A stretch of 35,517 nt of DNA, taken from IMG/VR virus record IMGVR_UViG_3300046167_000229, positions 1-35,517 of that record. One strand, 5' to 3'. The position numbers and the translations under genes are program-made. The notes under the pieces were generated by a model that was not told the origin of the DNA, ran no database searches, and saw only the letters and a program-made list of their open reading frames with translations. Origin of the DNA: a virus. Below are positions 1 through 35,517 of the stretch, piece after piece (the stretch's first letter is position 1; each line of letters starts with the position of its first letter).

Positions 1-264
1 TAGTTTTTCTACCATAGCCTTAACTTCCGCTAATTCTTCTTTGGTAGCATAAGACATTTCAGATTTAGGCTCCATAGCCTCAACCTCTTCAGAAGCCTCC
101 ACTTCAGGAGCTTCTTCTAATTCCGTCATAACTTCTTCCTCTTTAACCTCTTCAGTGGCATCTTCAAGTTGTACTTCTTCTTGTGCAATATCTTGAGTTT
201 CCACCTCTTCAGTTGAAGACAAAAGAACTTCCTTTAGTTTGGAAACGATTTCTGTTGCTTTCAT
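1..264 (-). CDS. capsid scaffold-like protein, 3'-truncated copy
   Basis: N-terminal 88 codons of the same acidic, Glu-rich protein that is complete at 34014-34457. The reading frame runs off the window at base 1. It starts at ATG 264 and differs from the complete copy by one visible substitution, Thr versus Ala in the 'SSxEEV' stretch. It belongs to the terminal overlap of the contig (offset 34193), so it is probably the same locus from a second strain and not a second gene. Confidence 0.85.
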   Translation of the reverse strand, partial: MKATEIVSKLKEVLLSSTEEVETQDIAQEEVQLEDATEEVKEEEVMTELEEAPEVEASEEVEAMEPKSEMSYATKEELAEVKAMVEKL

Positions 265-314
265 AAAAATTGATGTTTATAATTATTACTGATTAAAAAT
301 ATATTGTTGTATTT

Positions 315-470
315 TCAAGTGCCGTCACCAGTCACATTACCAACTCCTTGAGCCTGTAAAGAACCATCACAACATTTTCTTGAATACGTTTTACCATCTT
401 TACATAAACAGCCTCTACTTCCACCTTTAGGTGAAGAGTAGCTTGGTGTAGCTTTCATTCTCTTTTTCAT
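315..470 (-). CDS. small Cys-rich phage protein (copy A)
   Basis: This 51-residue basic protein starts at ATG 470. The A of that ATG is the last base of the TAA stop of the upstream variable gene (TAATG), which favours this start over a 15-codon longer one. It has a Cys cluster of the pattern CxC...CC around 'GCLCKDGKTYSRKCCDG' and a Gly-rich end. The protein is identical to copy B at 34508-34663. It lies between the variable virion protein and the scaffold, so a minor head role is possible. Function unknown. Confidence 0.7.
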   Translation of the reverse strand: MKKRMKATPSYSSPKGGSRGCLCKDGKTYSRKCCDGSLQAQGVGNVTGDGT

Positions 471-1096
471 TATCCTGCGTTTTGAGTTCGTTGTATAAAG
501 TAAATAACGTCCCATATTAATGAATCACCACCAACAGAATTTACTTTTAATTGAACACCATCAGCGACAAATGTTGCATCTGTATAATACTGCATCATTA
601 TATTTTCAACGTGTTCCTCATCATTTCCTTTTGGATAAGCTATAGTTCCTGCTACTCTTGATATTTGACCACTACCCTCTAAATTGTATTCTAAAAACGT
701 TTGATTTGCATTAACAGCAGAGGCCTTAAAAGCTACTGTAAAAATGTAAACATCATTCTCGTTAATACCTAGTATCTTTTTTGTAGTTGAATTATAAAAG
801 TCAATACTTGAATGGCTTCTTGTAACGCTACCTCCATTGTTTGGAAGTACAACTTCTGTATCTTCTACTAGTGTTAGTTTACTACTTGAAGTATATTGGG
901 TGTCATCATACCTAGCCCAACCTAAATTAACTGAACCTGTTTGAGGATATACTATTACATTTTGGTTATTATGACCCATATACAATGCATCATCAGTGCG
1001 TAGCATTGCACCGTTCTCTATATTCACAGAATCCACCTCAGCTTGGGTAGTGTCTTGAACGTGTACTCTATATGAAGTATTCTTTGTTGTGGCCAT
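470..1096 (-). CDS. variable virion protein (head decoration/fibre candidate), allele A
   Basis: A 208-residue protein with no recognised enzymatic motif, rich in Asn, Thr, Ser and Asp like a beta-rich virion surface protein. Residues 1-53 are identical to allele B at 34660-35289. From about residue 54 the two diverge to roughly half identity, and they match again at the C-terminal 'FIQRTQNAG'. It sits between the head protease and the scaffold/capsid genes. A conserved head-anchoring N-terminus with a variable exposed domain is inferred; a decoration or head-fibre role is likely but unproven. Confidence 0.75.
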   Translation of the reverse strand: MATTKNTSYRVHVQDTTQAEVDSVNIENGAMLRTDDALYMGHNNQNVIVYPQTGSVNLGWARYDDTQYTSSSKLTLVEDTEVVLPNNGGSVTRSHSSIDFYNSTTKKILGINENDVYIFTVAFKASAVNANQTFLEYNLEGSGQISRVAGTIAYPKGNDEEHVENIMMQYYTDATFVADGVQLKVNSVGGDSLIWDVIYFIQRTQNAG

Positions 1097-1098
1097 AT

Positions 1099-2118
1099 TT
1101 ACTGTTTAGGTACGCAGTTAGGTACTTTTCTACCATTCTTAGTCTTAAACCCAACCATTTCATATCCTTCTTGGCAAGGGTTTACATCCTCTAGTTCTTC
1201 TAAACCTCTAAGTTTAGACTCAGTCCAATTAAGCATACTTTTGCCTCCCCATAGAAGATAACTGATAGTTCCACAAGCCTCAGGCTTACTAGGATCATAA
1301 TATTCAGCAGCTCTACTTAGATAAGAGTAAATTCTCTTCAAAGTTGACACTGTAAACTTCTCTTTTCTAGCTAATTGCTGTCCTCTGACTTTCCCCACCT
1401 GAGTAGCACACTTATTACCTAACTCTTTATTCCTTTTTATACCTAATTTAGCATTATTAGATGCAGATTCTGGATATCCACCATAAGATTCTAACTCAAC
1501 CTCTTCAGATAGGCTTTCTAAGGCTTCTAGGAGCTCGTATTCGGCATTTAATTCATCTAGACACTCAGAACACATTTGTTCGGGTAAAGACTCCTTAGGG
1601 CCGTCCATTTTGTCTGCAAAGTAACCCTCAATAGAGAATCCTTTTACTTCACCTGCCTTAACTTGATTCCAAACGTCATCATTGTTAACTTTTACAGATA
1701 CCATCCAGGTTCCTACGGGTAAATCGAAGTCATATTTTCTAGATTTATCCTTTTTTTCGTCTTCTATAATCCAAGATTCGACCACAGACATCCCTTCGAG
1801 CTCTACATTATGTTCTAGAGTGCTATTATTTTGATTACCCTTCATTAAAAACAGTTCAGAAGCCTTTCTGACGGTATCTTCAGAGAAAAATATGTAATAT
1901 TCCTCTTCACCACTGTTTCTGTATATCTTTTTGTTAGGAATTAGGGCTGCACCCATCAAAATCCTCTTCTCTTTGTCTACTTCAGCAAGTTTTACCTCTT
2001 TATGCTCTTTCAAAGCGATAAAATCCTCTTCAATAGCCGGATTTTCTACAACTGAGATAGCTTCTATACCGCTAAACTCGTTTTCCTCGTCTATAATAAG
2101 TTCTATAATACGTTCCAT
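1099..2118 (-). CDS. head maturation protease, XkdF type, with C-terminal domain
   Basis: A 339-residue protein. Residues 1-180 match the XkdF-like (Peptidase_S78_2) prohead protease pattern: 'SVVENPAIEEDF' near the start, a 'TLEHN' histidine near residue 100, 'VVESWIIE', 'GTWMVSVKV' and the candidate nucleophile serine in 'KGFSIEGYF'. The C-terminal half (about 200-339) is an additional domain with 'YGGYPESASNNAK', 'WGGKSM' and paired cysteines, of a kind fused to or near head genes in other marine phages. It would cleave scaffold and capsid during head maturation. It lies directly upstream of the variable protein and scaffold. A partial second copy is at 35292-35517. Confidence 0.85.
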   Translation of the reverse strand: MERIIELIIDEENEFSGIEAISVVENPAIEEDFIALKEHKEVKLAEVDKEKRILMGAALIPNKKIYRNSGEEEYYIFFSEDTVRKASELFLMKGNQNNSTLEHNVELEGMSVVESWIIEDEKKDKSRKYDFDLPVGTWMVSVKVNNDDVWNQVKAGEVKGFSIEGYFADKMDGPKESLPEQMCSECLDELNAEYELLEALESLSEEVELESYGGYPESASNNAKLGIKRNKELGNKCATQVGKVRGQQLARKEKFTVSTLKRIYSYLSRAAEYYDPSKPEACGTISYLLWGGKSMLNWTESKLRGLEELEDVNPCQEGYEMVGFKTKNGRKVPNCVPKQ

Positions 2119-12114: not shown

Positions 12115-12864
12115 TTAAAGTTTAATTAATTGCTTTTTCCTTTGTTCTATTGGGGCCGTTACTACAAAGCCGCTTTTATCTTTGCGTGCCTCACCTTTTG
12201 CTCGTAAACCCAAAACAACATTTTTGTTATAGATCATTACCAGGTCACTGGTATCCCCGTCCACAACCTTAAAGCCCCGCCAATATTGTGGGAGCTCCCC
12301 GTTAAAAACAATAGAAACGTTTGAACCGTCGTTTAAAGCTGCAATAGCTGCGGACTCATTATCTTCAGCCCTGGAAAAAGTTAAAAAGTAGTTTGAATGA
12401 TCTTTATATTTTTTGACCTTACCTAGTATTTTAGTATAGTCATAAAAAATTGCGGTCGGTTGTAGGTCCTCAATATCTAAACCGGCATACTTTTTAAGTA
12501 AGTAGATAAAATCCTGGTCACTGGTCCCGTTTAAACGAAAGGCTATTTTTTCACCTTTCTTTTCGGCTTTCGCTGTTTCTCTTACTATTTCCTTTGCAAG
12601 CTGTTTAATAAATAAACTTTTATTATAAATAAAGTAGTTTGTTTTATTAATCCTAGAGCTCTGTACATTTGAGAATTTACCACGTCCGGCTGTGAATAGG
12701 CAAGCCTTTGCACAACCTTTAGAAGCACTGGGACAAATATTTATTTTCTTTGCGTTTTGGTTATATGGTGACAAATAAAGTATAAACGTTTTTAGATTAT
12801 TCTTTTTTGTTTTGGCATTGGTGAAACCTTTACTTAATAGGTTTTTTGGTATAGTATATTTCAT
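12115..12864 (-). CDS. GP88-family phage protein
   Basis: A 249-residue protein matching the Gene 88 (GP88) family known from mycobacteriophages and many other phages. Residues about 43-75 hold the signature 'CPSASKGCAKACLFTAGRG' followed by 'VQSSRINKTNYF', and about 110-118 has 'AFRLNGTSDQDF'. The three conserved cysteines (CxxxxxxCxxxC) suggest metal or cluster binding. The biochemical role of the family is not established. The gene is the longest of a self-contained cassette and its codon use looks like that of its neighbours. Confidence 0.8.
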   Translation of the reverse strand: MKYTIPKNLLSKGFTNAKTKKNNLKTFILYLSPYNQNAKKINICPSASKGCAKACLFTAGRGKFSNVQSSRINKTNYFIYNKSLFIKQLAKEIVRETAKAEKKGEKIAFRLNGTSDQDFIYLLKKYAGLDIEDLQPTAIFYDYTKILGKVKKYKDHSNYFLTFSRAEDNESAAIAALNDGSNVSIVFNGELPQYWRGFKVVDGDTSDLVMIYNKNVVLGLRAKGEARKDKSGFVVTAPIEQRKKQLIKL

Positions 12865-23108: not shown

Positions 23109-23474
23109 TTACGTTATAAACCAAATCATATCCGGTTTTAAATCATCATTATCAACGTGAATGTATTTACGGTGCAATCCAAACCTCCTAAATCCAACCA
23201 TATTTAATGCTTCAACTATTTTAAGACGTTTCTTGGCGTTTACACATTCAATATGTGCTGCCCTACCAATTAAGTGAGAGGATGTCGTAGAAGCCTTGTA
23301 ATGTACGTTATTATGGAAGGCACTAACATATCCACTAAGTATCTTAAATCTTATACCTGCAATATCCCTAGCTTCATCTAGCATAGCAAGGAACTCCCTA
23401 TCCATATACTTATAACCAGAACCTGGTAAATCGGGGGAATCGAATTCCTCAAAACGAAAATATTTATATTCCAT
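23109..23474 (-). CDS. M15-type peptidase paralogue with altered metal site
   Basis: A 121-residue protein aligned along its length with the M15 peptidase at 24370-24719. It has the 'SSHLIG' zinc histidine and the 'YIHVDNDD' histidine. In the middle motif the expected zinc-ligand Asp (AAD) is His (AAH), and the conserved Arg of 'SGYR' is Val. The three putative ligands are thus His-His-His. It may be a different hydrolase, a weakened endolysin or a non-catalytic binding protein. It is last in the lysis cassette. Confidence 0.75.
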   Translation of the reverse strand: MEYKYFRFEEFDSPDLPGSGYKYMDREFLAMLDEARDIAGIRFKILSGYVSAFHNNVHYKASTTSSHLIGRAAHIECVNAKKRLKIVEALNMVGFRRFGLHRKYIHVDNDDLKPDMIWFIT

Positions 23475-24242: not shown

Positions 24243-24351
24243 AACGTTTGTTTGTTTGTTGGATGATTGCATCCGTTAGTTTGTCGATACTTTTACGTAT
24301 CTCTTTCAATTCGTTTCTAAGTCCGTTAGACTTAATCTTTATTTCAGACAT
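24169..24351 (-). CDS. small coiled-coil protein overlapping lipoprotein gene
   Basis: A 60-residue protein, MSEIKIKSNGLRNELKEIRK..., helical for about 38 residues and then Asn/Cys/Lys-rich where it overlaps the lipoprotein gene. It lacks a transmembrane helix, so it is not a canonical inner spanin. The overlapping tail is probably unconstrained. Confidence 0.45.
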   Translation of the reverse strand: MSEIKIKSNGLRNELKEIRKSIDKLTDAIIQQTNKRYENNTNTTCCNDSKLCKCKKNKSS

Positions 24352-24369
24352 ATTGTACTACCTGTTGTA

Positions 24370-24719
24370 TTAGTAAGTCCAGACTGAGTTTGGTTTAGAG
24401 TCATCTGTATCACAATGGATAAAGGTTTTTGCAACTCCAATCCTACGGAATCCTGCTTTGATAAGTGCGGATAGTATAATATACCTTTCGTTTCCGTTGA
24501 CACAGCAATATCTGCTGCGACTCCAATAAGGTGTGAGGAATTTGGTACTCCACCGACTTGTTCGTTATGTTGTTTAGTTCTGTAACCTGAAGTGATTTTG
24601 AATGGAACACCTGCAATCTCTCTTGCCTCTTCAAGTTTAGCAAGAAAACTACTATCCATATTAACCCCACTACCTTTGTGGCTCGGACAGTCAAACTCAT
24701 CTAAAGTAAAGTACTTCAT
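24370..24719 (-). CDS. M15 peptidase endolysin (apparent frameshift)
   Basis: The N-terminal two thirds read as Peptidase_M15_3: 'SGYRTKQHNEQV', 'SSHLIGVAADIAV' with zinc-ligand His and Asp. After 'VSTETK', near the AAA run at 24486-24488, the frame becomes unlike the family. One additional A restores 'RYIILSALIKAGFRRIG', 'FIHCDTDDSKPNSVW' and a stop at 24370, for 116 residues. The restored part holds the third zinc ligand. The gap is probably a sequencing indel. The enzyme would cut peptidoglycan peptides (L-Ala-D-Glu or D-Ala type). Confidence 0.78.
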
Positions 24720-25169: not shown

Positions 25170-25310
25170 TTATTTTAATTTTTTACTTATTTGTATTACT
25201 GTATATGCTATTGCTAATACTAACGAAATCGTTTGTAAGTACGGATTTACCTCTGTTATACTAATTGCTAATGCTACTGCGTTCAATAAATATATCTTTA
25301 GTTGTTCCAT
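25170..25310 (-). CDS. small hydrophobic protein, holin-like
   Basis: A 46-residue protein, MEQLKIYLLNAVALAISITE..., with two hydrophobic stretches and a basic end (ISKKLK). TAATG overlap with the large fibre gene. It could be a second holin or an antiholin. No family recognised. Confidence 0.6.
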   Translation of the reverse strand: MEQLKIYLLNAVALAISITEVNPYLQTISLVLAIAYTVIQISKKLK

Positions 25311-28300
25311 TATTTAATTGCTAAATAGATATATGTTCCCCCATTTAAATTAACAAAACTACCATCTTGTACACTAAATCCATTTGACAAGAACTCAACA
25401 GTATAATTTGAAAGGTTTGGAAGATTAGCTTCCGCATTACTCTCGTCAGCAAGTAAATAAGCATCATATTGATTGTTTAGATACCTTTGATTATCAAAAA
25501 TAATCCAAGATTTTGAAGAATCAGTTTTTTTAATTAAAACAAATCTTGGCTCAAATCCCGTTTCAATAGTTTGCCTTGTAGGTGCTGTCCCCGTATAACT
25601 CCCTATCTTCTGATACCCTGTAACAGAGTGGAAGCAGTATGCGATGTAATTGTATGTATTATTTAAGTGACTTCCAAATTGTATAGTTGTGCTATTAGGG
25701 TCAGTATTATTCCAATAAGCGCTATTTGTGCTTGGAGCATTGCTTAAATCAAGATGTAATGCTTTTGTTGCCCCTATACTACTATTGTAAACAACCCAAT
25801 TATCAGCAAAATTAAGATGTTTTAAAAATATAAGTTCAGGTGCTTGAGAAAGTCCGTGACCCACAGTTGAGGTGCTTGTACTATTTCCTGTAAATTTAGC
25901 AATACTAAATCCTGCCTCTGCATTAACAGAAACTGTACTATCTATAGTACCCTCTGTGTTTATTTGTGGTAGGTTGTCATCGTGGTCTCCCGCTTTCCAA
26001 CACCAAGCTACGTAAGTATCTCCATTAGTGTTTGAATTACCATTATATTCTATAACAAATCCATCATCATTAAAAGAACTAACAATATTTGGTAATGTAG
26101 TAGCCTCTGCCCCTGTTGAATCTGATATTAAAAAGTTTTCTGCACCTCTAACCGAATCTTGCAAGAAGTTAGCCCAACTTGCGCTACTTCGTGATTTTAT
26201 CCATACTAAATCAGGTTTGAAATCTGTATCTATTTGTCTACTTGAAGTTCCATCTCCTGTATAAGTAACAACATCAAAGCTATCTTCTACTGTTGGAGTA
26301 GTTTCATCTGGGTCTGCTGCTATTGCTAAATAGATGTAAGTTGAATTACTTTGATTTATTTCATTATTTGTTCCGTTTATTGTAAAACCATTAGAATTGA
26401 AATCTACATTAAAAACACTTGTACCATCAGCCTCTTGAGCGCTTTCGTTAGCTTGTAGGTATTCTCCCTGCGGATTTGTAGTTGTTCTTTTATTGTCAAA
26501 AATATACCAACTACCTGCTCCAGATGGTCTAATAGCAGCCTTAAACATTAAAAATGCAGGTTCAAATCCTGTTACAACAGAGTTACCTGCTGCTCCTGTC
26601 CCTGTATAAGACCCTACTTTAGAGTAGCCATCTACGCTGTGGAAGCAGTAGGCGATATAATCTTCGCTTGAGCCAACATTAATACCCGCCTTACTCGGAA
26701 ATGTAGTTATTGTTGGTGTTGCAAATATGTTTGATTGACTTGCTGCTTGTGCGGTTGTATTTAATCTTAAGTATTGATTTATTCCCGTTGGCAAACTATA
26801 TACAATCCAATCTCTTGTTGATAATGATTTATAAAGTACTAATTCAGGAGCAGAGGATAATCCGTGTCCTACTGTTGAATTAGTTCCTGTTCCTGTGTTC
26901 CACTTCACAATACTAAACCCTGCATCTTGATTAGCTGAAACTTGACTATCTATACTTCCTTCTTCGTTTAATACGTCAGCACCTCCTGCTTTCCAACACC
27001 ACGCGACGTAGGTATCATTATTATCATTACTTCCCCCATAATTACCAAGAGAAAATCCGTTAGTATTAAAAGAACTTATTGATGCTCTTTCAAATTCAGC
27101 GTTAGTAGAGTTTGAAGATATTATTTTAGCATCGCCATCAGCCGCAAACCCTCTTACAGAATCTATTAATAAATGATCCCAAGAACTTTGATTTCTAATC
27201 TTTATCCACACCAAATCAGGAGTAAATTTCGTAGCCTCTTGGTAAGTTACGTTAGTAGCAGTACCATCATAAGCGTAGGTTACGTTTGATGCAGTACCAT
27301 CGTATAATTGTTGTTCGTCTCTTGCATCACCATCTAATTTGTAATATGCCTCAAGGTTGTCTGTTGGTATAGATGCTGTAGTGTTGTTGTAGATATACCC
27401 TACTTCGTCATCAGTTAATTCATCTGAATAGATTCTTACATCGTCTATTTTGCCGTGAAAATAATCTCCTGCTGAAAATCCTCTGCTACCTAAAGCACAC
27501 CCCGAATGGTTTGATATATCTAAAGCAGTATATGTATCAGTTCCTTGTGATACACCATTAACAAAAAGTTCTAAACCATTGGAAGTAGAGTTAGTTACTG
27601 TTATGTGAGTCCAAGTATTTAAAGTTGGGCTTGACATAGTAACCTCTTTTTGATTTGCACCATTTCCAACTATTGCTTTCCAACCATCAATAACATACCC
27701 AAAAGAAATGCCTCTACTACCTGAACTCGCTTGATGTGCAAAAACATACCTCACAATAGAACCTGTATAATTAACAGTTGGATACATCCATAATGAATAA
27801 GAAAAATTATCTTGTGTTATAACAGATGTTGGTAGAGTTATTCTACTACTACTCCCATTAAATATAGCAGCACTTCCAAACTTACCACTAACTCCCCCTG
27901 TATCATTTGCATTACCATCTAATTGGTATAAAGCAACACCTGAATTGTCATCAAATATATCTGTAGTAGATATTGTAGTAGATGAATGGGTTTCTCCATA
28001 TAGAGTAGTTACTTCTGAAGAAGATAATGCTTTGTCAAAGATTCTTACTTGGTCTATTGTGCCATTTAGATATTCACTTCTTGTACTTGTTTGAGGAAGG
28101 AATTGATGTCCTATGTTTATTTTAGCACTACTTTGATAGCTACTTGACCAACTACCTGAAGGTATTGAAAGTGTAGCTACAGGTGTTGTGTTTCCGTCTA
28201 CATATGCTTTTTGAGAAGAATTTGCAACATCGTGTGTAATACATAAATGATGCCAATTACCATCATCATAAGCTGCTGTTGAGGTTGCAGCTACTACCGA

Positions 28301-28660
28301 CCCATTATTATATCTTGAAGTTATTCCTAAAGTACCATTTGTTTCAATAGAAACAGCATAATTCCAACTTTCTACAGCGTAATCAGAGAAGAGCTGAACC
28401 TTTGAAGAGTTATTTAATAATCTAAACCAAAATGATACGCTTGAAGTTGTTTTGCCTAAAAATAACGAATTTACATTTGGTATATTAATGTAGGAACTAC
28501 TCCCATTAAATACAGCACCTCTATTTATATATCCACCAATACGTTGAGTACCTCCGTTTCCTGTATAGAGAACTGTATTGAAGTTTTCAGATGCAAAAGT
28601 ATTTGCTGCTACAGGAGCATCCGCTGCAACCTTTTTAAATGTCTTTCTGTTTAAAGCCAT
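25310..28660 (-). CDS. large tail fibre/adhesin with LamG and duplicated DUF7483-like domains
   Basis: A 1116-residue protein. Two LamG/concanavalin-like domains lie at about 25-225 and 240-435 ('NWHHLCITHDV', 'GTIDQVRIFDKALSSSEV', 'KIDDVRIYSDELTDDEV'). A short linker has an 11-residue tandem repeat (YDGTAxNVTY). Two long repeats follow at about 480-790 and 800-1116, each with 'DSVRG', 'TYVAWCWKAG', 'STVGHGLS.APEL' and 'YIAYCFHSV.GY.K.GSYTG'. These resemble the marine-phage domain DUF7483. It probably binds glycans on the host surface. It follows the fibre genes and precedes lysis. Confidence 0.82.
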   Translation of the reverse strand: MALNRKTFKKVAADAPVAANTFASENFNTVLYTGNGGTQRIGGYINRGAVFNGSSSYINIPNVNSLFLGKTTSSVSFWFRLLNNSSKVQLFSDYAVESWNYAVSIETNGTLGITSRYNNGSVVAATSTAAYDDGNWHHLCITHDVANSSQKAYVDGNTTPVATLSIPSGSWSSSYQSSAKINIGHQFLPQTSTRSEYLNGTIDQVRIFDKALSSSEVTTLYGETHSSTTISTTDIFDDNSGVALYQLDGNANDTGGVSGKFGSAAIFNGSSSRITLPTSVITQDNFSYSLWMYPTVNYTGSIVRYVFAHQASSGSRGISFGYVIDGWKAIVGNGANQKEVTMSSPTLNTWTHITVTNSTSNGLELFVNGVSQGTDTYTALDISNHSGCALGSRGFSAGDYFHGKIDDVRIYSDELTDDEVGYIYNNTTASIPTDNLEAYYKLDGDARDEQQLYDGTASNVTYAYDGTATNVTYQEATKFTPDLVWIKIRNQSSWDHLLIDSVRGFAADGDAKIISSNSTNAEFERASISSFNTNGFSLGNYGGSNDNNDTYVAWCWKAGGADVLNEEGSIDSQVSANQDAGFSIVKWNTGTGTNSTVGHGLSSAPELVLYKSLSTRDWIVYSLPTGINQYLRLNTTAQAASQSNIFATPTITTFPSKAGINVGSSEDYIAYCFHSVDGYSKVGSYTGTGAAGNSVVTGFEPAFLMFKAAIRPSGAGSWYIFDNKRTTTNPQGEYLQANESAQEADGTSVFNVDFNSNGFTINGTNNEINQSNSTYIYLAIAADPDETTPTVEDSFDVVTYTGDGTSSRQIDTDFKPDLVWIKSRSSASWANFLQDSVRGAENFLISDSTGAEATTLPNIVSSFNDDGFVIEYNGNSNTNGDTYVAWCWKAGDHDDNLPQINTEGTIDSTVSVNAEAGFSIAKFTGNSTSTSTVGHGLSQAPELIFLKHLNFADNWVVYNSSIGATKALHLDLSNAPSTNSAYWNNTDPNSTTIQFGSHLNNTYNYIAYCFHSVTGYQKIGSYTGTAPTRQTIETGFEPRFVLIKKTDSSKSWIIFDNQRYLNNQYDAYLLADESNAEANLPNLSNYTVEFLSNGFSVQDGSFVNLNGGTYIYLAIK

Positions 28661-28661
28661 A

Positions 28662-29144
28662 TTATAATGTTATATCGTACTGTACTACTTGTGCCTTTGT
28701 GGTCTTTGCGTTTATCTCCCCCTCTTTTGTTGAACAACTTGTTCTAATTGCTGCCCTCTCATCTAAAGTAGCTTGTGCGGTTGTGTTTCCTAGTTCAGTA
28801 TCTCTTACTATTATCCAATCAGTTTCTGATAATTTACTGTTAGCATTTGCTTTTAAGTTTGCAATCTTTTGCGTTTTAAGTTCCGCTAGAGTTTGACTCC
28901 AAGTCTTATTAGTCTTTGGGTAAGTAAACTGTGTATTCGCTGAATCCCAAAAGATATCTCCTAAATCGTGGATTGCACTATTATAACCACTCGGCATAAC
29001 AACGTCAAATAACCCCTCTGCTTTTCTTTCGCCCTCTGTTAGTTGGTCAAAGCCTCCTAGATATTCCTTTTGACTACCTTTAAATGCTTTTGGTACTGAT
29101 TGATAAACCTGTATCGTTCCGTTTCTATTTATTGCGTATGCCAT
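28662..29144 (-). CDS. tail fibre-associated protein (assembly-like)
   Basis: A 160-residue protein from ATG 29144 (MAYAINRNGTIQVYQ...), chosen over an upstream GTG because it gives a TAATG overlap. 'TWSQTLAELKTQKIANLKAN' and 'LDERAAIRTSCSTKEGEINA' resemble the helical C-terminal segment of phage fibre or fibre-assembly proteins. It lies between two fibre genes. Confidence 0.6.
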   Translation of the reverse strand: MAYAINRNGTIQVYQSVPKAFKGSQKEYLGGFDQLTEGERKAEGLFDVVMPSGYNSAIHDLGDIFWDSANTQFTYPKTNKTWSQTLAELKTQKIANLKANANSKLSETDWIIVRDTELGNTTAQATLDERAAIRTSCSTKEGEINAKTTKAQVVQYDITL

Positions 29145-29881
29145 TATGATGCTATTTGTGAGATTTGATACCACGCCTCTGACGTAGAGATAAATTTAAA
29201 TTCTATTAAGTTTTTTGCAGAACTTGTATCACTATAAGTACCGCCTAGTGTATTAAACGTACCTGATGCTCCGTTTATGTTTCCTAAAGCTAAAGTGTAA
29301 GAACCACCGCCTCCTGTGATTACCACAGCACAAGTAGAACCTACCTTAACATTTGTAAAGTCTACTGTTGTAGAATGTCCTGCTGTCCAAGTAAATACAT
29401 CTGCTGTTGAAGTATCTAGTGTGATTGATGTTGCTGATGTTACTGCACTTGAAGCTGTGTATCTGTTTGATAGTTGGTCGTGACCTACTCCATTATCTGA
29501 GATACTAACTGTTACATCTCCTGTTGTGGTGTCAACTTCTAATCCTGTGCCTGCATCTACAGTAGTAATTAAATTAGTGTCATCTAAAAGAGAAGATAAA
29601 TCAAGAGTAAAAGTAGACGTATCACTATTTGTAAAAGTAACAACACCTGCCCCATCAATAGATGCACTTGTTATTGCAGTATCATCTAAGTAAGGAGCTA
29701 AATCTACAGTATCTGTAGTACCATCAGCCTTTGTTAGCGTTAGCGTATTAGTAGCTAAAGATAAATCAGGCTTTCCATATAGCTCCGTAAAGTTGTCATT
29801 AGATTTATCAAACGCACTTCTTAACGGGTCTCCAGTGCCATCATTAGCCGTAGTCCCAATTCCTATTGTTTGTTGTGCCAT
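29144..29881 (-). CDS. tail fibre / structural protein
   Basis: A 245-residue, Thr/Ser/Asp-rich protein. It starts 'MAQQTIGIGTTANDGTGDPL' with 'DKSNDNFTELYG', a motif common at the N-terminus of phage fibres and appendage proteins. The remainder is repetitive beta-like sequence ending in a small jelly-roll-like segment. Virion appendage is likely. Confidence 0.7.
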   Translation of the reverse strand: MAQQTIGIGTTANDGTGDPLRSAFDKSNDNFTELYGKPDLSLATNTLTLTKADGTTDTVDLAPYLDDTAITSASIDGAGVVTFTNSDTSTFTLDLSSLLDDTNLITTVDAGTGLEVDTTTGDVTVSISDNGVGHDQLSNRYTASSAVTSATSITLDTSTADVFTWTAGHSTTVDFTNVKVGSTCAVVITGGGGSYTLALGNINGASGTFNTLGGTYSDTSSAKNLIEFKFISTSEAWYQISQIAS

Positions 29882-33027: not shown

Positions 33028-33986
33028 TTAGTCGTTAGCAGAGTTAGTGATACCGTAAGTTACGATGTCATCAACAATACCATACTGTACACCTGCTGTA
33101 AATCTCATTACGACTCTTACGTTTTGAGAACCATCTAGGTCAGCCATATCGATAACTTTAACCTCGTTGTGGTCAGATAATAGACCAGTACCGAAGAATA
33201 AGTTAGACTTCTCAGCAGCTACTGCAGTATCAGACTCCTAGTCCGTTAGCAACGAAGATTTTCACTCCGTCAAAAGATAAGTGAACCGTTATTCCACCAC
33301 TGAGTACCCATTGCATTTGTACCTGCAGCACCTAGTCCGCTAGATCCAAATCCACCTAAAGCTCTTACATAAGCTCTAGCAATGTTTTGAGATACATAGA
33401 TGTTTAAGTCTTCAGCACCGTAAAGAGCAGAAGGAACAGCGTCTACGATTTTACCTAGCTCAGTGATTACGTTTCCTGCAGTAACTGTAGTACCAGAAAC
33501 TTCATTAGCTTGTGGTAAAGCAGCATCAGCAGCTAAGATAGTAGATAGTCCGTCAAACTGTCCGTTTGTAGAAGTTGAACCTGCCCAGATAGACTGCTCA
33601 GTTCTTTGAGCAACTTTAGCTGCAACGTGTGCAATTAAGAAGTCAGAGAATTGAGAAGGCATATTGCTGTGTGCAGAAAAGCCCATTGATAAAGCCTCCC
33701 AATCAGATACAAAGTCTTTCTTACATAACTGTAGGTTAACTTGTTGCTCTTCTGGTTGAAGGATTCTTTCTGTAAGTGTAACAGTTGAAGTAGGATCAAA
33801 ATCACAAGTTGCATCCTTAACGATATCGTCAGTAGCCACTTTTTTGATAACCTCTTTTAACTTTACATTCGGTTTTACGGTAATACCACCATTAGCGATA
33901 GTAGAACCTTCGAGTAGAGCAGCAGCGATATATTCACCTGCGAACTCTCCTGCGTAAGTAGTAGTAATTGATGTAGTTGTTGCCAT
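33028..33986 (-). CDS. major capsid protein (two apparent frameshifts)
   Basis: Residues 1-238 read continuously: 'TYAGEFAGEYIAAALLEGST', 'EQQVNLQLCKKDFVSDWEAL', 'DLNIYVSQNIARAYVRALGG'. A stop then appears at 33270. Removing one base from the TTTT run (plus-strand A4 at 33272-33275) restores 'FDGVKIFVANGL'. Removing one more near 33237-33238 restores 'ESDTAVAAEKSNLFFGTGLL' and the end '...YGITNSAND' at 33028, about 318 residues. This is the main shell protein, between scaffold and tube. The indels are probably sequencing errors. Confidence 0.85.
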
Positions 33987-34013: not shown

Positions 34014-34457
34014 TTATTTATTTAATCTTGCTAAAACTCTATCAAGAGTAGTTGCAGGTGCGTTTTGAGAGTATAAATGTAAATTCTTGCTCTCTGTTGC
34101 GTTCTCTGGGCTGTGAGTTAAAGGCTCTTCATCAGCAGATAGTTCTTGAGGAACTTCTTGCTTAGACTCTTCTTTAGCCTCTAATTGACCCATTAGTTTT
34201 TCTACCATAGCCTTAACTTCCGCTAATTCTTCTTTGGTAGCATAAGACATTTCAGATTTAGGCTCCATAGCCTCAACCTCTTCAGAAGCCTCCACTTCAG
34301 GAGCTTCTTCTAATTCCGTCATAACTTCTTCCTCTTTAACCTCTTCAGTGGCATCTTCAAGTTGTACTTCTTCTTGTGCAATATCTTGAGTTTCCACCTC
34401 TTCAGCTGAAGACAAAAGAACTTCCTTTAGTTTGGAAACGATTTCTGTTGCTTTCAT
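34014..34457 (-). CDS. capsid scaffold-like protein
   Basis: A 147-residue, very acidic protein with long Glu-rich stretches and a coiled-coil-like middle ('KEELAEVKAMVEKLMGQLEA', about residues 73-92). A polar C-terminus ends 'TLDRVLARLNK'. Composition, length and location just ahead of the major capsid gene fit a scaffold. The basic C-terminal helix could be the capsid-binding end. The 5' part is repeated at 1-264. Confidence 0.75.
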   Translation of the reverse strand: MKATEIVSKLKEVLLSSAEEVETQDIAQEEVQLEDATEEVKEEEVMTELEEAPEVEASEEVEAMEPKSEMSYATKEELAEVKAMVEKLMGQLEAKEESKQEVPQELSADEEPLTHSPENATESKNLHLYSQNAPATTLDRVLARLNK

Positions 34458-34507
34458 AAAAATTGATGTTTATAATTATTACTGATTAAAAATATATTGT
34501 TGTATTT

Positions 34508-34663
34508 TCAAGTGCCGTCACCAGTCACATTACCAACTCCTTGAGCCTGTAAAGAACCATCACAACATTTTCTTGAATACGTTTTACCGTCTTTACATAA
34601 ACAGCCTCTACTGCCACCTTTAGGTGAAGAGTAGCTTGGTGTAGCTTTCATTCTCTTTTTCAT
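34508..34663 (-). CDS. small Cys-rich phage protein (copy B)
   Basis: A 51-residue protein identical in sequence to copy A. Its ATG at 34663 overlaps the TGA of the variable gene here (ATGA), whereas copy A uses a TAATG overlap. Both versions keep translational coupling despite the different stop. Confidence 0.7.
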   Translation of the reverse strand: MKKRMKATPSYSSPKGGSRGCLCKDGKTYSRKCCDGSLQAQGVGNVTGDGT

Positions 34664-35289
34664 AAACCTGCGTTTTGTGTACGTTGTATGAAGAATATAA
34701 TATCCCATATCTTAGCAGGACCACCATCAGCTTGTATCTTAGGTGTCAATCCATTTGCTAAAGCATTTGCATCTAAATAGTATTGGAACATTATATGTTG
34801 ATTTTGTGTTTCATCATTTCCTTTATAGAAACCTAATGCCATATTGATTCTATCATAATCATCAGCACCTCTTAATATAAAGTCTAAGTGAGTCTGATTC
34901 GCATTACCGGATGATTTCTTAAATACAACGGTCACACTATATACATCATTTTCATTCACCCCCACAAACTTATTAGTGGATGAATTATAGAAATCAATGC
35001 TCGAATGACTCCTTACCACACTAGCTGCATCATTAGGTAGTGTGACCTCAACTCCATCTGTCAGTATTAGTTTATTTTCAGCGTGATATGTTGAATCATC
35101 ATATCTTGCCCAACCTAAACCAAGTGCACCTGTTTGAGGATATACTATTACATTTTGGTTATTATGACCCATATACAATGCGTCATCAGTGCGTAGCATT
35201 GCACCGTTCTCTATATTCACAGAATCTACCTCAGCTTGGGTAGTATCTTGAACGTGTACTCTATATGAAGTATTCTTTGTTGTGGCCAT
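34660..35289 (-). CDS. variable virion protein (head decoration/fibre candidate), allele B
   Basis: A 209-residue homologue of the 470-1096 product. Residues 1-53 are identical, residues 54 onward differ at roughly half of positions, and the C-terminal 'FIQRTQNAG' is shared; this copy has one extra Leu. Conserved islands in the variable part include 'GWARYDD', 'RSHSSIDFYNS', 'NENDVY', 'NANQT' and 'KGNDE'. They suggest the same fold with different surface residues. Confidence 0.75.
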   Translation of the reverse strand: MATTKNTSYRVHVQDTTQAEVDSVNIENGAMLRTDDALYMGHNNQNVIVYPQTGALGLGWARYDDSTYHAENKLILTDGVEVTLPNDAASVVRSHSSIDFYNSSTNKFVGVNENDVYSVTVVFKKSSGNANQTHLDFILRGADDYDRINMALGFYKGNDETQNQHIMFQYYLDANALANGLTPKIQADGGPAKIWDIIFFIQRTQNAGL

Positions 35290-35291
35290 AT

Positions 35292-35517
35292 TTACTGTTT
35301 AGGTACGCAGTTAGGTACTTTTCTACCATTCTTAGTCTTAAATCCAACCATTTCATATCCTTCTTGGCAAGGGTTTACATCCTCTAGTTCTTCTAAACCT
35401 CTAAGTTTAGACTCAGTCCAATTAAGCATACTTTTGCCTCCCCATAGAAGATAACTGATAGTTCCACAAGCCTCAGGCTTACTAGGATCATAATATTCAG
35501 CAGCCCTACTTAAGTAA
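35292..35517 (-). CDS. head protease C-terminal fragment (5'-truncated copy)
   Basis: The last ~75 codons of the XkdF-type protease, corresponding to 1099-1324, cut off by the window edge. Nearly identical to the first copy, with a few base differences. It belongs to the terminal overlap. Confidence 0.85.
   Translation of the reverse strand, partial: YLSRAAEYYDPSKPEACGTISYLLWGGKSMLNWTESKLRGLEELEDVNPCQEGYEMVGFKTKNGRKVPNCVPKQ

Follow-up and report, generated by a model that had tools for sequence, protein, structure and literature searches.

Two alleles of a putative virion appendage gene at the overlapping ends of a phage contig, and exchange of its predicted C1q-like knob among relatives

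The IMG/VR virus contig IMGVR_UViG_3300046167_000229, a stretch of 35517 b that was analysed at full length and is called the window here, carries near each of its two ends a copy of the same small gene for a putative virion appendage protein. The two copies agree at the N-terminus and differ strongly behind it. This raises the question of how two versions of one gene came to lie at the two ends of a single contig, and what kind of protein varies in such a manner. We consider it likely that the contig runs over its own start and thereby holds the alleles of two strains, and that the gene encodes an appendage of the head module whose binding knob is swapped by recombination.

An end-to-end alignment confirmed that both contig ends carry the same locus, as proposed in the initial annotation: positions 1-1324 and 34194-35517 (1324 b each) align with 183 differences. 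In agreement with the handful of differences described outside the gene, only 10 of 856 flank bases (the first 53 codons counted in) are substituted, whereas the gene's 3' part has 173 substitutions in 468 bases. Broken down by segment, there are 3 differences in the 469 bases of 1-469, 173 in the 468 bases of 470-937, 3 in the 159 bases of the first 53 codons and 4 in the 228 bases of 1097-1324. In a comparison of the open reading frame (ORF) translations, the ten flank differences comprised about nine silent ones and one that changes Thr to Ala in the scaffold gene, and not a single indel. Because they are mostly silent and free of indels, these differences look like real strain variation and not like sequencing errors. 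The borders of the repeat coincide with the first and the last base of the window, as expected when the assembly of a circle continues beyond its starting point, and both ends truncate genes (a scaffold-like gene and a protease gene), each of which is intact in the other copy. We read the window as a circular map of ~34.19 kb (35517 b minus the overlap, a unit of 34193 b) with overlapping ends that carry different alleles. These alleles are most simply attributed to two co-occurring strains.

The view of two alleles captured by wrap-around is backed by the relatives, since all 24 relative contigs checked contain one locus per contig. Relatives form circles of similar length: one contig (G007, 34269 b) closes through a perfect terminal repeat of 111 b, located elsewhere on the map, and the ends of a second one (G002, 34461 b) map near each other without overlap. 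In one of the 24 contigs (G017, 36392 b) the gene is split across the contig ends, with the start at knob residue 164 and the end at residue 159; a circle cut within the knob is expected where alleles mix. A further relative (G003, 34464 b; L139:1-211 and the end of L140) closes with ends that overlap by 211 b at 99.5% identity; this is a second imperfect end repeat, and the contig was opened near the same locus as the window. The consensus of the window itself is imperfect, with two frame breaks compared with relatives, one in the gene of the major capsid protein (MCP) and one in an M15 peptidase gene.

Within the first 53 codons the alleles A and B differ by the three silent changes already described, which are located in codons 15, 21 and 36. 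From codon 54 about 83 of 153 aligned positions are identical; the 46% that differ correspond to the half of positions estimated initially. Both alleles end with FIQRTQNAG, so that the reported shared C-terminal motif does exist, but the C-terminus is conserved in the whole family and there is consequently no convergence of the two alleles. About 41 of the differing knob codons are silent and spread over the knob. The substitution rates at nonsynonymous and synonymous sites between A and B (dN 0.37, dS 1.51; NG86) place the silent sites near saturation.

For both alleles AlphaFold monomer models were built on 72 sequences from the window and IMG/VR. The mean pLDDT (predicted local distance difference test) values were 88.9 and 88.8, and both models contain nearly the same elements. 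Residues ~52-208 are predicted to form a TNF/C1q-like jelly-roll knob, preceded by 53 residues that consist mostly of strands and one short helix. A fold search with the allele A model yielded the tail-needle knobs of HS1 (Z 13.6, 3.6 Å) and Sf6 (Z 13.5, 3.4 Å), matched over 139-140 residues at 12% identity, and next the C1q heads (Z 12.7). The solved jelly-roll members superimpose over the whole domain, with a root mean square deviation of 2.4-3.6 Å over 128-140 residues, and among predicted viral proteins RIO-1 gp43 fits at 1.6 Å. The long coiled-coil shaft and the portal-plugging N-terminus of the P22/Sf6 needle are not present, as only 53 residues precede the knob. The fold suggests that the knob is probably a homotrimer.

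At the sequence level the knob belongs to phrog_8270, a family of unknown function, which was matched within residues 57-205 with E-values of 1e-15 for allele A and 5.9e-18 for allele B; a PHROGs search with just the first 53 residues gave no match. In Pfam no family was found at E 0.001 for either allele, and a lax threshold brought no usable family (the best was Phage_tail_NK, PF16532, with E 0.077 in 1 of 72 members), so that the C1q/TNF label holds at the level of the fold. A sequence search of the PDB gave only weak matches, among them the Sf6 knob with E 0.21, and the fold search settled the fold. Relatives in bacterial or archaeal genomes were not found, hence there is no link to a host. 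The mean column entropy is alike in strands (1.07) and elsewhere (1.01), and surface loops were rejected as the variable part on this ground. The structure prediction suggested in the initial annotation gave the same knob fold for both alleles, and the variability is not restricted to loops.

The initial annotation had also suggested an exchangeable domain, driven by recombination or selection, and a comparison of related phages for allele exchange. In the clustering, 63 IMG/VR relatives were grouped with the two window alleles. The protease cluster of the window comprises three knob classes with 7, 2 and 8 members (window alleles counted in), and members of the A-like class are spread over at least four protease clusters, as are those of the B-like class. 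Knob identity is hardly correlated with protease identity (Spearman 0.13) or MCP identity (0.11); protease and MCP identity are themselves correlated at only 0.23. The same knob, with up to 99.6% DNA identity, was found on unrelated backbones. The pair L167/L170 shares 99.6% from codon 58.7 to the stop, where the adjoining DNA is not alignable, L013/L023 shares 95.9% from codon 60 and L069/L103 shares 96.3% from codon 59. The converse was found as well, with different knobs on near-identical backbones (96-98%): in L175/L188 the identity is 98.2% until codon 52.7 and again 95.5% from codon 197 on, and L114/L094 share 96.3% as far as codon 65 and 96.8% after the knob, from codon 196. The A/B pair of the window is of this converse type. 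The exchange breaks lie at codons ~53-65 and ~196-212, and the structural border (residue ~52-57) coincides with the exchange border at codon 54. Some swaps extend into the anchor, as in L006/L011 (from codon 39) and L005/L013 (from codon 8). Judged from the discordance of knob and backbone and from the sharp breakpoints, the relatives have swapped the knob repeatedly as one unit by recombination, which bears out the suggested exchange.

The second proposed driver fared differently. The median omega (dN/dS, NG86) among relatives is 0.14 for the knob and 0.16 for the N-terminus, and at the level of the whole gene no sign of positive selection was observed. These values indicate that selection on the knob is purifying and that the alleles are old and were kept functional. 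With an omega of ~0.14 the knob diversity is old and redistributed by recombination, and the near-saturated silent sites between A and B likewise point to old alleles that were swapped into near-identical backbones.

The surroundings of the gene are constant. The order protease, knob gene, small gene, scaffold and MCP was found in 117 of 117 loci (Table 1). A survey based on the MCP, which is blind to the knob, yielded 57 loci holding both protease and MCP: 16 contain the knob gene, 14 a gene for a protein of 150-157 residues that begins with MADKKISEL or similar, 7 a longer small downstream gene and 20 none of these; the counts are descriptive, as many loci come from related contigs and some contigs were counted repeatedly. 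The MADKKISEL-type gene, which belongs to no clear family, is located between the small gene and the scaffold and therefore stands in for the knob gene within the region, though at a different site; both genes occur together in 1 of 171 knob loci. Examples from relatives without knob are L226:2498-2968, L249:2518-2970 and L231:1073-1537. Six loci (L221, L226, L249, L258, L262 and L245) were found without a knob gene at the slot. Four of them (L258, L262, L249 and L245) align to the window up to 3-8 b before the knob ATG and again from the stop, with 1-3 b between the aligned parts, which is a clean empty site. By this comparison the knob gene behaves as a cassette that can be present or missing between head protease and scaffold, and the appendage would be dispensable. 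The MCP-like gene of the window is broken at 33230-33273. It has 238 in-frame residues compared with ~298-332 in relatives, which hold intact copies, and its C-terminal ~65 residues are in another frame; this is either an error or a real change.

Table 1. Features of the window; all positions are in bases of the 35517-b contig.
Feature	Position	Strand	Basis
Virion appendage gene, allele A (208 aa)	470..1096	-	ORF; phrog_8270 over residues 57-204
N-terminal anchor, codons 1-53, allele A, conserved	938..1096	-	allele alignment, family conservation, model
C-terminal knob, codons 54-208, allele A, exchange unit	473..937	-	TNF/C1q jelly roll (predicted); breakpoints
Virion appendage gene, allele B (209 aa)	34660..35289	-	ORF; phrog_8270 over residues 57-205
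N-terminal anchor, codons 1-53, allele B, conserved	35131..35289	-	allele alignment, model
C-terminal knob, codons 54-209, allele B	34663..35130	-	secondary-structure elements as in allele A
Left copy of end overlap	1..1324		alignment of contig ends
Right copy of end overlap	34194..35517		alignment of contig ends
Head maturation protease (Peptidase_S78_2), upstream slot boundary	1099..2118	-	PF14550, 65.4 bits
Protease gene, C-terminal end, cut by contig end	35292..35516	-	ORF
Small gene (51 aa from MKKRMKA), overlaps allele A stop, downstream slot boundary	315..470	-	ORF
Small gene, other copy	34508..34663	-	ORF
Acidic scaffold-like gene (147 aa)	34014..34457	-	ORF; putative scaffold role from position and composition
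Scaffold-like gene, N-terminal part, cut by contig start	1..264	-	ORF
MCP-like gene (phrog_11320), frame broken after residue 238	33270..33986	-	PHROG match, relatives

These observations can be joined in one scheme. The contig would represent a full turn (~34.19 kb) of the genome of a marine tailed phage plus 1324 b of overlap, with the allele of one strain at the left end and that of a nearly identical co-occurring strain at the right end. The appendage would consist of an N-terminal anchor of ~53 residues and a C-terminal TNF/C1q-like knob, probably as a homotrimer. With crossovers inside the conserved anchor or at the edge of the domain (codons ~30-65) and others close to the conserved C-terminus or stop (codons ~196-212), the knob would be swapped as a unit, which may alter binding and keep attachment. 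The position in the head module, the dispensability and the anchor-plus-knob architecture suggest a head fibre or an adhesive decoration protein.

Other origins of the two alleles fit the data less well. That the contig depicts one heterozygous molecule with terminal redundancy, or a concatemer, produced by recombination of co-infecting phages, is in our estimate unlikely. An overlap of 1324 b is 3.9% of 34.19 kb, and a headful redundancy of about this size is plausible from phages such as T4 and P22; in addition, the relatives were opened at differing map positions, and the two frame breaks, one of them in the MCP gene, might indicate indel-prone data. However, a short-read assembler that meets two strains yields the same contig, the end overlaps of the relatives vary (111, 211 and 0 b) and the flanks of the overlap are free of indels. 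Far less probable still is a true duplication of the locus within one genome: although a single contig holds two intact genes, the repeat borders are exactly the contig ends, which truncate both flanking genes, and none of the relatives has a second locus. We give equally little credence to hypermutation or positive selection in place of exchange, for instance by a diversity-generating retroelement. The restriction of the variation to one domain of one gene would agree with it, but the ~41 silent codon differences between the A and B knobs, the omega of ~0.14 among relatives and the whole knobs shared by unrelated backbones at 95-99.6% DNA identity do not. No further domain copy or template was detected in the record at the protein level, in a search not aimed separately at a reverse transcriptase.

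A more serious competitor, which we nevertheless judge to be the less likely account, places the protein on the tail, as a receptor-binding protein or needle tip, with a gene that only happens to lie in the head module. The homologous knob gene of RIO-1 adjoins a tail-appendage gene, the knob of Nonlabens P12024L follows a T4 gp9/10-like N-terminus, that of Vibrio VH-8 is part of an annotated tail fibre gene, and the best fold match is a tail-needle knob. In the group of the window, by contrast, the gene is always located between protease and scaffold, its anchor is unlike those tail anchors, the gp9/10-like N-terminus of the window is found on a different protein (29144-29881), and relatives without the knob gene exist, unlike what is expected for an essential needle. 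Several points weigh against the explanation that we prefer. The head location is read from gene order alone, and isolates with the same knob family carry it in or near tail genes; hence the head association claimed in the initial annotation agrees with the gene order in all 117 loci but not with these isolates. The monomer model tells nothing direct about trimerisation. In P22 chimeras the fold-related Sf6 knob left the host species specificity unchanged (PMC3741392). The preference for two strains over one molecule is a judgement from the assembled contig, and metagenome assemblies can be chimeric; yet the knob swaps recur across many samples. On balance a dispensable head fibre or decoration protein, with a knob that binds a host-surface ligand, is the most likely identity of the appendage. 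Here we regard binding to the host surface as likely and attachment to the head as somewhat less so, though still favoured. More tentatively, and a little short of even chances in our view, it may be a head-borne modular adhesin, for which a family of marine phages keeps a slot between protease and scaffold that holds a C1q-like knob gene, with knobs exchanged at the domain border, that has a different small virion-like gene close by, or that is empty.

Marine phages are already known to have hypervariable binding tips of a C1q-like kind. In the marine phage C1q-domain proteins described by Mizuno et al. 2014 (PMC3909814), which are putative receptor-binding proteins in metaviromic islands, the N-termini recruit and the C1q domains under-recruit. 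The window protein shares with them the marine phage setting and the conserved N-terminus followed by a hypervariable C1q-like domain, for which host recognition was proposed there. It differs by its location in the head module, the domain-exact exchange between backbones and the presence or absence of the whole gene. The Sf6/HS1 tail-needle knob (PDB 3RWN, 4K6B) is likewise a C-terminal TNF-like jelly roll that is horizontally exchanged, as is known for P22-like phages (PMC3741392), but with ~12% identity, a long shaft and portal plug and another gene position, and the knobs analysed here are far more diverse. RIO-1 gp43, Nonlabens P12024L gp47, Marinomonas CPP1m gp26 and the Vibrio VH-8 tail fibre gene belong to the sequence family of the knob, by direct matches or by matches through RIO-1; these proteins have other N-termini and are mostly encoded in or near tail genes.

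The head fibres and adhesive decoration proteins phi29 gp8.5, T4 Hoc and T5 pb10 (reviewed in PMC7602432) are dispensable, too, and combine a capsid-binding base with an outer cell-attachment part. That outer part is a coiled coil or Ig-like and not TNF/C1q-like, and for the window protein capsid binding is an assumption drawn from the encoding in the head module, which all 117 loci have in common with this class. Domain shuffling is general in phage receptor-binding proteins (Nat Commun 2023, PMC10684548), where binding domains were also recently exchanged on a retained remainder of the protein, although mainly in tail fibres and tail spikes. The literature library searched contained no paper on C1q-like decoration proteins. 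The window protein follows the manner of the marine C1q-domain proteins, the needle knobs and the shuffled receptor-binding proteins. New are the location in the head module and the domain-exact exchange across distant backbones, and a further difference is that the whole gene can be present or absent like a cassette.

The window contains further genes of interest. Fibre-like genes are located at 25310-29881, apart from the knob gene. The first of them (25310-28660) encodes a fibre-like protein of 1116 aa with two Laminin_G_3 and two DUF7483 stretches and is probably the main tail-fibre or adhesin gene; the 245-aa product of 29144-29881 resembles at its N-terminus the T4 gp9/10 tail-fibre connectors. 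Two Peptidase_M15_3 paralogues (24339-24719 and 23109-23474) are 49% identical over ~80 residues, and the former shows a frame change near 24490 compared with relatives. A GP88 domain protein (PF17338) is encoded at 12115-12864 between the head/tail genes and the terminase.

The locus shows clearly, in a natural setting, recombination in units of a structural domain, with breakpoints near codon 54-60 and at the stop, where stretches of ~60% and >95% identity adjoin. Metagenomic phage contigs with imperfectly overlapping ends can hold allele information that a plain terminal-repeat test misses. If the protein is indeed located on the head, these phages would vary a capsid-borne binding tip in the same way as they vary tail fibres, and the slot between protease and scaffold would point to further candidate appendages; if it serves there as an adhesin, the capsid instead of the tail would be the place where surface binding is varied.
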